64,000 bases of DNA, from NCBI GenBank assembly GCA_029210915.1, contig JARGGJ010000005.1, positions 1-64,000 of the forward strand. Direction: 5' to 3'. Positions 3,504-63,452 of the stretch are shown here, one piece after another (within the stretch, counting starts at the first letter, position 1; each line of letters begins with the position of its first letter). Made by a program: the position numbers and the translations under genes. Source of the stretch: Patescibacteria group bacterium (GTDB lineage: Bacteria > Patescibacteriota > Patescibacteriia > 2-12-FULL-60-25). The notes below the pieces were generated by a model. The model made no database searches, was not told the origin of the DNA, and worked only from the letters and a program-made list of their open reading frames with translations.

Positions 3504-3533
3504 CTCGAAATTAAGAATTATTTATAGGGAAAA

Positions 3534-3610
3534 GTCATAACGTCATAAGGTCATAACGGTGGTAATTATGTAACCCCGTTAAGACGTTACGACGTTAAGA
3601 CGTTAAGACC
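3534..3610. repeat. intergenic inverted repeat of a GTCATAAC/GTCTTAAC word
   Basis: The left arm repeats GTCATAACGTCATAAGG; the right arm is the reverse complement built from GTTAAGACGTTACGAC units. Together they could form a long imperfect hairpin between the two copper genes. The same word family recurs at 63377-63452. Confidence 0.8.
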
Positions 3611-3617
3611 AGTTTAT

Positions 3618-25508: not shown

Positions 25509-25537
25509 TTAGCCCTAGTACTTAGTCCTAGTCCTAG
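25509..25537. repeat. solo CTAGTACTTAGTCCTAG repeat
   Basis: A ~29-bp copy of the word repeat that flanks the four-helix-protein element at 37706-38158, here without a gene. Confidence 0.75.
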
Positions 25538-25600
25538 AAACTGAAAATGACTTTTATTGGTTTGTAAATGGTTGATAAGTGAGTGGACAGTGATTAAAAA

Positions 25601-25635
25601 ATCCTGGTAATCCTGAAAATCCTATACATCAAGGT
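25601..25635. repeat. AATCCTGRTAATCCTGAAAATC repeat
   Basis: ATCCTGGTAATCCTGAAAAT followed by ATCAAGGTAAA. Relatives lie at 34336-34385, 35606-35652 and 50116-50190, in both orientations. Confidence 0.7.
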
Positions 25636-25666
25636 AAAAAAAGACCCACAAGTTTGTGGGTTTTTA
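25636..25666. terminator. bidirectional terminator
   Basis: ACCCACAA pairs with TTGTGGGT, flanked by A7 and T5 between convergent genes. Confidence 0.8.
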
Positions 25667-32335: not shown

Positions 32336-32603
32336 GGGTGTTGGGCGGGTAATTTGGCTAAGGTAAGCTAAAAATTGCTTTTTTGTTATATCTGAAATTA
32401 CAGAAAAAGTCCTAGTACTTAGTCTTAGTCCTAGTAATTGAAGAAAAAGGGTCTATTAGTGAGTGATCAGTGAACAGTGTTTAGTGAAGGAAATGGAGGA
32501 TGTTATGTGGCTTTGTTCAGCTAAAAGTTTGTGTATGATAAATAATCAAGGTAATCATTTAATCAAGCGCTTGCCCGCCTTTGGAGGGAATCAAGGTTCA
32601 AGA
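32336..32603. repeat. gene-free stretch with solo repeats
   Basis: It includes a CTAGTACTTAGTCTTAGTCC copy (32409-32436), GTGATCAGTGAACAGTGT words (32462-32483) and ATCAAGGTAATC words. An 87-codon plus-strand frame here (32463-32726) runs through repeats and the neighbour's terminator and is not supported. Confidence 0.6.
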
Positions 32604-32628
32604 CAAAAAAACCTCCAGTTTAGAGGTT
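32604..32628 (-). terminator. terminator of the 32627-32938 gene
   Basis: AACCTC pairs with GAGGTT; the minus-strand transcript then enters T7. The hairpin touches the stop codon. Confidence 0.7.
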
Positions 32629-35491: not shown

Positions 35492-35653
35492 AACTAAAAA
35501 AGGCAAATGGCAAATGGCAAATAGCAAATAGCAAGAGAGGTGATGGTTTATAAGAAGAATAAATAATCAAGTTAATCCATGAATCGTGTGAATCAGGGAT
35601 CAGACAATAAAATAATCCTGTTAATCCTGAAAATCATGGTAATCAAGGTAAAA

Positions 35654-36689: not shown

Positions 36690-36716
36690 TTAAAAACAGG
36701 TACGAGACCTGTTTTT
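36690..36716. terminator. bidirectional terminator
   Basis: AACAGGT pairs with ACCTGTT, flanked by AAAA and T6 between convergent genes. Confidence 0.8.
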
Positions 36717-37693
36717 TATTTTCTTTTTAAAACTTTTTTAGCCGCTTTTACAATATCTTTGGCGCGCATTCCATATTTGGTAATAAGTTCATCGGGTTCA
36801 CCGGATTCGCCGAAGTGGTTGGGCATGCCGATGGGTTCGATTGGTACAGGGTAATTTTGCGCGCAAAACTCGGCGACAGCACCGTGTAAGCCTCCGGTCG
36901 TTTGATGCTCCTCGATTGTGACAGCGCAAAGAGTCTTTTTTAAAGATGTTTGAATTGTTTTACCATCGAGTGGTTTAATTGTGTGTGAGTTGATGACTTC
37001 CGCTTCAATATGTTGTTTAGCCAGTTCTTCGGCGGCGAGCAGCGCTTCGTGGAGCAGGGGACCGCAAGCGATTAGAGTTACATCATAACCCTCGCGGCAA
37101 ACGTATGCTTTGCCAAATTCGAATGGAGTTTTATTGGTTGTGATGACGGGGGTTTTTTCACGGGCGAATCTGAAGTAGACCGGACCTTTGTGTTTGGCGG
37201 CAGCAAGAGTGCATTTGCGGGTTTCCTCGGCATCACAAGGAGCGCAAACAATAATATCCGGTAAAACTCTCGTGATTGCTATGTCTTCGAGAGCTTGATG
37301 AGTGGCACCATCAGGGCCAACCGAAACTCCGGTGTGAGCGCCGGCGATTTTTACGTTAGCTTTGCCATAGCAAACAGAGACTCGGAGTTGATCCCAGGAT
37401 CGGCCGGGGGAGAAGACGGCATAGGAAGAAACGAATGGGATTTTACCGGAAAGCGCGAGCCCTGCCGCTACACCCATCATGTTTTGCTCGGCAACTCCGC
37501 ACTCGATGAATCTTTCAGGATATGTTTCACCAAATTTTTGCGCGCGGGTAGATTCCGCAAGATCAGCCGTTAGAACGACGACGTCCGGGTTTGTTTCGCC
37601 AAGTTCCAAAAGAGCATCGCCGTAGCCATTACGAGTTGGGATTTTTTCGACGGTTTTATACAGGACGTAGGGATTAAGGGGTACTTGTTTCAT
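36716..37693 (-). CDS. transketolase, C-terminal (pyrimidine-binding plus C) subunit
   Basis: A 325-residue half-transketolase. It begins with GDALLELGETNPDVVVLTADLAEST, has the cofactor-activating Glu in FIECGVAEQNMMG near residue 86, and DGATHQALEDIA near 128 lines the active site. With the N-terminal subunit (38163-39044) it forms the thiamine diphosphate enzyme that moves two-carbon units between sugar phosphates. Split transketolases are common in archaea and Patescibacteria. The two halves, normally adjacent, are separated here by an inserted four-helix protein element. No SD site is seen. Confidence 0.93.
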   Translation of the reverse strand: MKQVPLNPYVLYKTVEKIPTRNGYGDALLELGETNPDVVVLTADLAESTRAQKFGETYPERFIECGVAEQNMMGVAAGLALSGKIPFVSSYAVFSPGRSWDQLRVSVCYGKANVKIAGAHTGVSVGPDGATHQALEDIAITRVLPDIIVCAPCDAEETRKCTLAAAKHKGPVYFRFAREKTPVITTNKTPFEFGKAYVCREGYDVTLIACGPLLHEALLAAEELAKQHIEAEVINSHTIKPLDGKTIQTSLKKTLCAVTIEEHQTTGGLHGAVAEFCAQNYPVPIEPIGMPNHFGESGEPDELITKYGMRAKDIVKAAKKVLKRK

Positions 37694-37705
37694 AATTAAA
37701 AAATT

Positions 37706-38158
37706 CTTGTACTTAGTCCTAGTACTTAGTCCTAGTCCTAGGGGTGGGGTTAAGTTTAATGGATTTTGATAGGCCGTTTATGATGCAGCCAATTTCGGTG
37801 GTTAATTTATATAATTCTGAAAATTTTTTGTCATCAAAGTAGTTAAAATCTAATCCGAGATAAAGCATACTTCTTACTTCATTGCATGATCCGTTGGATA
37901 TTGAGAGAAAATGTATAAATTCTTTTTCACTTTTTCTACCAAATCCTTCGGCAATATTATTCATGATTGATAAGGAAGCGCGAAGTATTTGATCTTTATA
38001 ATAGTAATCTCGATTTTGTTTTAAAGCGATATATAATATTTTGTTTAGTTCTCTCGCTTTCTGCCAAGCAATAATGTCTTCAAACCTGGATATACTCATA
38101 TTCATTTACTAGGACTAGGACTAAGACTAGGACTAGGACTAAGTACTAGGACTATTAG
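37706..38158. mobile_element. candidate element: four-helix protein gene between inverted word repeats
   Basis: Both ends carry AGTCCTAGTACTTAGTCC and TAGTCCTAG words in inverted orientation; at least 27 bp match perfectly between the left arm (37711-37740) and the right arm. The left arm reaches into the gene and supplies its stop. Solo copies at 25509-25537 and 32409-32436 suggest a dispersed repeat. There is no transposase. Confidence 0.6.
37719..38105 (-). CDS. S23-type four-helix bundle protein
   Basis: A 128-residue protein of the four-helix bundle family known from 23S rRNA intervening sequences (S23/IVP), also related to the bAvd proteins of diversity-generating retroelements. FEDIIAWQKARELNK near residue 8 and SIMNNIAEGFGRKSEKEFIHFL near 47 are the signature. 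Its last residues (TPRTRTKY) and TAG stop are encoded by the flanking CTAGGACTAGGACTAAG repeat. No reverse transcriptase is in the window. It sits between the two transketolase subunits, so it looks inserted. The biochemical role is unknown. Confidence 0.9.
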   Translation of the reverse strand: MNMSISRFEDIIAWQKARELNKILYIALKQNRDYYYKDQILRASLSIMNNIAEGFGRKSEKEFIHFLSISNGSCNEVRSMLYLGLDFNYFDDKKFSELYKLTTEIGCIINGLSKSIKLNPTPRTRTKY

Positions 38159-38162
38159 TCGG

Positions 38163-39044
38163 TTATTGATGTTCGCTGGTAATTTTGCCGTTCAGTGTCC
38201 GTAGTTCGTGCAGTGCGATTTTGGCTTCTTCTTTGTTTGGTGGTTTGCCGTGCCATTCGTATTTATTCTCCATAAAATCCACTCCTTTACCCGGGATTGT
38301 GTGGCAGATAATAACGGTTGGGTTGGCGGCCATGGATTGGGCTTTTTTCATGGCATCTAAAATTTCGCGGATATTATGGCCGTCGACTTCGATAACGAAC
38401 CAGTTAAAGGCTTTGAATTTATCAGCGAGATTTTCGAGAGGCATGATATCTTCCGTGGGGCCATCTATTTGGATGTTGTTGCGATCGACAAAAACGGTTA
38501 ATTCTCTTAGATCCATTTTTCCGGCAAGCATGAAAGCTTCCCAGCACTGGCCTTCGTCCAGTTCGCCGTCGCTCATAAGGCACCAGGTATGATAACTAAC
38601 TTTCGTCGCTCGTTTAACGTCGCTCGTCCCACGTCGATTCATTCGAGATGCTAAAGCCATGCCTATGGCTTGGGAGATGCCTTGGCCAAGGGGGCCTCCG
38701 CAGGTTTCGATGCCGTTATTATAGTGATTGTTGGAGTGGCCTTGGAGAGGGGAGCCGAGTTTGCGCAAAGTTTTTAATTGTTTGTGAGGGATAAAGCCGG
38801 CATGCGCCAATGTTGCATAGAGCACCGGGCAGATGTGAGCATTGCTGAGAACTACGCGATCGCGAGCGGGGTCGTTTTTCTTTTTAGAATCCAGCTTGGC
38901 AATGCCACCCAGGTAGAGTGCTGTAAAAACATCGGCCATGCCAAGCGGGCCGGCGGAGTGCCCGCTGCCTGCAGTTAGAAGCATGTTGATGATGTCTTGG
39001 CGGATTTGATTAGCGATCTTTTCGAGTTGTTTAGTTGTTTTCAT
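38163..39044 (-). CDS. transketolase, N-terminal (thiamine diphosphate-binding) subunit
   Basis: A 293-residue half-transketolase. AGSGHSAGPLGMADVFTALY is near residue 25 and the thiamine diphosphate/Mg motif SDGELDEGQCWEA, closing with the Asn of VDRNNIQID, is near 155-185. It pairs with the 36716-37693 subunit. Between ASRMN and YHTW an extra RRGTSDVKRATKVS segment appears, encoded by a CGTCGCTCG-type repeat (38602-38637) also found in rpiB and in the 56051 gene. A TAAAAT lies about ten bases before the ATG. Confidence 0.93.
   Translation of the reverse strand: MKTTKQLEKIANQIRQDIINMLLTAGSGHSAGPLGMADVFTALYLGGIAKLDSKKKNDPARDRVVLSNAHICPVLYATLAHAGFIPHKQLKTLRKLGSPLQGHSNNHYNNGIETCGGPLGQGISQAIGMALASRMNRRGTSDVKRATKVSYHTWCLMSDGELDEGQCWEAFMLAGKMDLRELTVFVDRNNIQIDGPTEDIMPLENLADKFKAFNWFVIEVDGHNIREILDAMKKAQSMAANPTVIICHTIPGKGVDFMENKYEWHGKPPNKEEAKIALHELRTLNGKITSEHQ
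38602..38637 (-). repeat. in-frame coding repeat (GTSDVKRAT) in transketolase
   Basis: On the coding strand ACGTGGGACGAGCGACG followed by TTAAACGAGCGACG. It is read in the same frame as the copies at 44111-44146 and 56345-56380. Confidence 0.8.
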
Positions 39045-43755: not shown

Positions 43756-43765
43756 AACAATGTAG

Positions 43766-43860
43766 TTTATAAAGTTGAAGGTTTGTAAAGTTTGTAAAGT
43801 TGTTGAACTTGAGTTTCTACTTTACGAACTTTACGAACTTTATAAACTTTATGAACTTTA
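43766..43860. repeat. AAAGTTTGTAAAGTT inverted word repeat
   Basis: GGTTTGTAAAGTTTGTAAAG on the left and ACTTTACGAACTTTATAAAC on the right, able to form a long hairpin between rpiB and rpe. Confidence 0.8.
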
Positions 43861-45214: not shown

Positions 45215-45300
45215 CGTTCATAACGTTGCAACGTTCATAACGAGTTTAACGTACTAAGTAAACATCATTAACTCGTTATAAACGTTATGAACGTTTAAAC
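45215..45300. repeat. AACGTTCATAACG inverted word repeat
   Basis: GTTCATAACGTTGCAACG and AACGAGTTTAACG on the left; TTAACTCGTTATAAACG and TTATGAACGTT on the right. It shares the TAAACATCATTAACTCGTTA core with 50271-50380. Confidence 0.8.
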
Positions 45301-50115: not shown

Positions 50116-50380
50116 TTACCTTGATTACCTTGATTACCTTGATTACCTTGATTTTCAGGATTAAGAGAATTAGCAGGATTAACTAACAAATATCTACCAA
50201 ATATTTACCAAGATACTATTCAACTCGATAAATCTCGCTCATAGCCTTCGGCAAGTTACAAATATCGACCAAACGTTCACTGAACGTTTTTAACGTTTTT
50301 AACGTTATAACGAGTTTAGTAGTTGCTTTGGTAAACATCATTAACTCGTTACGAACGTTAAAAACGTTATGAACGTTACG
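50116..50380. repeat. CCTTGATTACCTTGATTA tandem and AACGTTTTTAACG inverted repeats
   Basis: 50116-50190 holds four TTACCTTGA units and TTTTCAGGATTA. 50271-50380 holds GAACGTTTTTAACG on the left and CGAACGTTAAAAACG on the right, with the shared TAAACATCATTAACTCGTTA core. Together they fill the gene-free stretch. Confidence 0.8.
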
Positions 50381-63368: not shown

Positions 63369-63376
63369 AGGTAAAA

Positions 63377-63452
63377 GTCTTAACGTCTTAATGTCATAAC
63401 GTACTAAACAATAAACCCCGTTATAACTTTAAGACGTTATGACGTTATGACC
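63377..63452. repeat. GTCTTAACGTCTTAATGTCATAAC inverted word repeat
   Basis: GTCTTAACGTCTTAATGTC on the left and TTAAGACGTTATGACG on the right; same family as 3534-3610, 60 kb away. Confidence 0.8.

Follow-up and report, generated by a model that had tools for sequence, protein, structure and literature searches.

Open reading frames of the S23 family occur in intervening sequences (IVSs) of 23S rRNA genes; that of Coxiella burnetii, for example, carries tandem GACAGAT heptamers ahead of its S23 ORF and has inverted repeats of some 28 bp at its ends (PMC4990558). Intergenic repeats of 7 nt have been described in their own right, namely (i) the STRRs, which are common in cyanobacteria and capable of forming hairpins (Mazel et al. 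1990, cited in PMC2670836), and whose function is given as unknown, and (ii) the TAACTGA repeats, for which MacGregor (2015, PMC4679880) sees no transfer mechanism; the available portions of both accounts draw no link to an S23 gene. A further analogy may be made with REP/RAYT systems and MITEs, in which a gene-bearing copy is accompanied by short non-coding copies sharing its ends. The S23 family is also distantly related to Avd of diversity-generating retroelements (DGRs), a kinship visible as a weak NCBIfam match to the S23 protein. In the open-access literature, no paper was found that connects heptamer repeats with S23 genes located outside rRNA.

Here we describe an S23 gene from a Patescibacteria group bacterium (assembly GCA_029210915.1) which, set between inverted arrays of short words, is probably the only gene of a mobile DNA element inserted at a junction of co-oriented genes. 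The window analysed comprises positions 1 to 64,000 of contig JARGGJ010000005.1 (64,000 nucleotides); the features at and related to the junction of its two transketolase (tkt) genes are as follows.

37719..38105, minus strand: S23/four-helix-bundle protein gene, sole gene of the element (PF05635 and TIGR02436 matches)
38163..39044, minus strand: upstream host gene, transketolase N-terminal half (match to the N-terminal half of transketolase models)
36716..37693, minus strand: downstream host gene, transketolase C-terminal half (match to the C-terminal half of transketolase models)
38107..38154, minus strand: 5' arm relative to the gene, an array of CTAGTC/TAGTACT words
37709..37741, minus strand: 3' arm relative to the gene, an array of inverted words that overlaps the S23 ORF at its end, stop codon included
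37714..37741, unstranded: perfect 28-bp inverted repeat, left copy (pairs with 38127-38154)
38127..38154, unstranded: perfect 28-bp inverted repeat, right copy (pairs with 37714-37741)
25510..25537, plus strand: single CTAGTC-type arm, with no inverted partner seen nearby
32410..32437, plus strand: single CTAGTC-type arm

The ORF is intact (128 codons, 128 amino acids), lies on the same strand as both transketolase genes, and belongs to the S23 family: it matches PF05635 (23S_rRNA_IVP) with 111.6 bits (E 2.6e-32) against a curated cut-off of 33.8, and TIGR02436 as well. The two 28-nt repeats are 100% complementary and embedded in longer CTAGTC/TAGTACT arrays, and the flank-versus-flank score is 56, whereas none of 103 displaced controls taken within the genus scored above 25. 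The initial annotation had the gene bracketed by inverted word repeats of at least 27 bp, one of them supplying the last eight residues and the stop codon; the bracketing is confirmed and the stop codon does lie within the arm, while the residues so encoded are about the last six. No clear target duplication could be read at the junctions. The CTAGTC words are not confined to this one place, further arrays being present elsewhere in the genome and, as listed above, at two places in the window.

The unit resembles the rRNA IVSs in its S23-family ORF, its similar length and its terminal inverted repeats around that ORF, but differs in lying between protein genes, here the tkt halves rather than the interior of a 23S rRNA gene, and in arms that lack a G.U signature. 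The Coxiella heptamers link the rRNA IVSs with heptamer-armed S23 elements, and kinship between the two, as proposed in the initial annotation, is plausible on the grounds of protein family, terminal inverted repeats and these heptamers. When the genome's own 23S rRNA gene was checked for S23, the 23S match fell on one contig (C30) and the S23 matches on others. The genome's 23S rRNA match (L198) takes up only about 1.5 kb although the model is matched over its full length, with an assembly gap or joining by the search tool as candidate causes.

Fifteen S23 genes were found in this genome; inverted word arrays flank nearly all of them, and most copies have a word of their own. In a sample of nine genomes of the genus (this and the other samples consist of stretches of genomes), the 99th percentile of displaced intervals was exceeded by 46 of 48 S23 genes, and 44 scored higher than any of the 103 controls. 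Most arms are degenerate arrays of 7- to 9-nt words, and some S23 subtypes hold one word type, such as CATGTAR or CCAATAA, across species. Co-specificity of word and protein was considered and set aside: similarity of proteins and of words correlated overall (112 loci; r 0.40, permutation maximum 0.20), but the correlation within the genus was not clear (r 0.12 versus a permutation maximum of 0.21). A family of hairpins built of TAACGTC words recurs at 3530-3612 and 63370-63450 of the window and in the downstream flank of another locus (L013), where it is immediately adjacent to an S23 element built of different words.

The arrangement extends well beyond the genus. Among named loci drawn from many phyla (80, of which 76 were usable), 57 exceeded the 99th percentile of controls and 41 the maximum of 308 controls, many of the 5' arms being variants of AAGTT or AAGTC words; the null for this broad set was formed by displaced intervals of the same loci, a null of mismatched flank pairs having been dropped because different loci share word types. 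A class-wide sample, with control intervals taken without runs of N, gave 29 of 40 above the 99th percentile and 24 of 40 above the maximum of 800 controls. All 12 plasmid copies, mostly from cyanobacteria, had inverted heptamer-type arms, their scores ranging from 29 to 63 where the highest control reached 24. In the broad and class samples, roughly one locus in four was not clearly enclosed by arms, and a scan of IMG/VR viral contigs found no S23 relatives. Across several samples, the arm structure is far beyond chance.

Short word arrays beside a gene look like operator arrays, and S23 genes are co-directional with their operons, features that would suit a regulatory or toxin-antitoxin-like module; its protein would control its own operon by binding the repeats on either side, and ordinary recombination would move it. 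The arms, however, stand at both sides of the gene and not on the promoter side alone, many different words occur within one genome, and the insertion sites are housekeeping junctions; we regard a module of this kind as highly improbable.

Comparison of junctions among relatives bears on mobility. The initial annotation proposed that the S23 gene splits a pair that normally adjoins, and the N- and C-terminal transketolase genes are indeed adjacent in several congeners, with only 7 nt between them in one. In a further congener (G006) the tkt junction holds the remnant of another S23 element with different words. An S23 gene at this place with unrelated flanks had been named as the observation that would refute a mobile unit; that case was observed here, but the occupant is another element, whose two arms match each other. 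Likewise, the gatC|gatA and rnpA|yidD junctions are, across congeners, empty, occupied by different S23 elements, or occupied by a GxxExxY gene. On cyanobacterial plasmids, compared at 85-97% DNA identity, the cas10|cmr3 junction is filled by S23 in Picosynechococcus 7003 and empty in 7002, and a tra junction carries S23 in Nostoc C052 and N. edaphicum, is empty in C057, and bears a gene-less word hairpin in ATCC 53789. The same junctions are repeatedly occupied by different elements, and occupied and empty sites are found in close relatives, as in mobile elements. A mobile unit outside rRNA is well supported by the adjacent tkt genes of congeners, the same layout with other words in many genomes, and clean empty sites elsewhere. 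In Synechocystis PCC 7338 the cas10|cmr3 junction, the site of S23 in Picosynechococcus 7003, is occupied by a Uma2 gene (endonuclease family; L248:1231-1785); no word arms were seen around this gene, and it was set aside as a comparable occupant.

The GxxExxY gene (PF13366, PDDEXK_3, a PDDEXK nuclease family) occupies units similar to the S23 elements. Its ends carry inverted words of their own, GTCTGAACCTTGATT, and the six well-resolved examples are co-directional with both neighbours.

Word hairpins and arrays also occur in the window in the absence of either gene.

45215..45295, unstranded: gene-less hairpin of AACGTTCATAACG words, with ends like those of another S23 copy (L003)
50283..50375, unstranded: gene-less hairpin of AACGTTTTTAACG words, same family as 45215..45295
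43764..43860, unstranded: gene-less hairpin of AGTTTATAAAGTT 9-nt words
50116..50163, unstranded: TTACCTTGA word array, like GxxExxY element ends, gene absent

Arrays resembling GxxExxY ends (ACCTTGATT / AATCAAGGT) but without the gene were noted at 35590-35650, 25595-25640, 32560-32605 and 50116-50163. Elsewhere in the window, a 20-nt inverted word repeat, ATTGGTAATTCGTAATTGTT (1259-1278 / 1750-1769), encloses a tRNA gene and some 470 nt, with no S23 gene present.

This genome has 8.5 word-periodic inverted hairpins per 100 kb, the S23 element itself being counted in, as against none in 120 kb of an S23-free congener (G003); a congener with four S23 genes (G007) likewise had none in 60 kb. 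Other genomes of the class gave 12 word hairpins in 400 kb from S23-rich genomes versus 0 in 390 kb from S23-free ones, the S23-free set having a slightly higher G+C content (0.47 versus 0.43). Gene-less hairpins share the words of S23 elements and, among the genomes sampled, were found only in S23-bearing ones. Two Nostoc plasmids also have gene-less hairpins, the words on one of them being those of its S23 element. The S23 copies of Nostoc and other plasmids have 7-nt arms and, like the STRRs and TAACTGA repeats, lie between genes; by word type and place, the arms of S23 elements may correspond to STRRs.

That word arrays without S23 are common could also mean that they spread by other means, such as slippage or another transposase, and that S23 is a passive passenger riding between two copies. 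At another locus (L106:7592-8217) an elongation factor P-like ORF lies between two hairpins of CAAATAGC words, and therefore two neighbouring short elements alone can produce enclosure. Against passive carriage, enclosure holds for nearly all S23 genes of the genus but not for displaced control intervals, the word of every S23 copy is its own and matches between the two sides, and no word hairpins were seen in the S23-free genomes sampled; we consider such carriage quite unlikely.

Where both neighbours share a strand, S23 genes follow their direction in ratios of 33:1 and 59:3 (together 92:4). This strong bias is one of the points favouring an IVS-like RNA element, the arms of which would pair in the operon transcript and form a stem cut by RNase III, the insertion being tolerated through removal or insulation at the RNA level and perhaps spreading through RNA. 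The S23-bearing Coxiella rRNA IVS is cut by RNase III (PMC4990558). With arms paired, the transcript fold is extreme (z -5.4), the DNA fold being equally so (z -5.2). In orthologues of the MSFRDLVVWQQ subtype from six species the arms have changed together (91.7% of cells paired, 13 double-change pairs, 0 of 500 shuffles), with some G.U pairs; this subtype seems to be long resident with co-varying arms, which fits selected pairing too. A selected RNA stem is expected to show more G.U. Over 135 loci, however, no excess of G.U was found between the arms in the sense transcript (117 G.U-type versus 127 A.C-type mismatches, p = 0.56). This count, the one available test, lends no support to selection for an RNA stem, nor to the cut transcript stem suggested in the initial annotation; the arms therefore look like DNA repeats, presumably kept alike by recognition or copying. 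An antisense copy between nrdB and nrdA in Nostoc edaphicum, and the absence of an RVT_1 reverse transcriptase from this genome, also speak against an RNA element, which we regard as unlikely. Expression of the S23 gene from the host operon would explain its co-direction with neighbours more simply.

We return to the one-gene mobile DNA element. The same arrangement, with its own word each time, around most sampled S23 genes points to a mobile element that is widespread and apparently undescribed. The S23 protein would act as its specificity factor, binding the word arrays on DNA, possibly with one word per subunit; the S23-family protein of X. campestris is a homopentamer (PMC4990558), and solved structures of S23 relatives exist (2gsc, 2rld). 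Hairpins lacking S23 would be non-autonomous or decayed forms, and cutting and copying would fall to host enzymes or to some further partner. A reverse transcriptase and a Y1 transposase were considered as movers and set aside, this genome having no match to RVT_1 (PF00078) or to Y1_Tnp (PF01797). The element is in these respects unlike DGRs, retrons and group II introns on the one hand, and REP/RAYT and IS200/IS605 systems on the other; it also departs from REP/RAYT and MITEs in having ends composed of word arrays that vary from copy to copy.

The element is plausibly related to the rRNA IVSs and possibly the source of the cyanobacterial STRRs. More tentatively, and at somewhat less than even confidence, we propose a new class of one-gene DNA element in many bacterial phyla, in which a ring of S23 protein recognises inverted word-array ends, with the rRNA IVSs forming a specialised subset and the STRRs, along with comparable heptamer repeats, being its gene-less remains. 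A single answer may thereby cover three old puzzles handled apart in the papers found, namely the role of the S23 four-helix protein, the origin of rRNA IVSs, and the rise and spread of heptamer repeats (in the case of STRRs, since 1990). Filled and empty sites exist in cultured strains (Picosynechococcus 7003 and 7002), and mobility is therefore testable; should their mobility depend on no recognised recombinase, these elements would represent a new mode of DNA movement.
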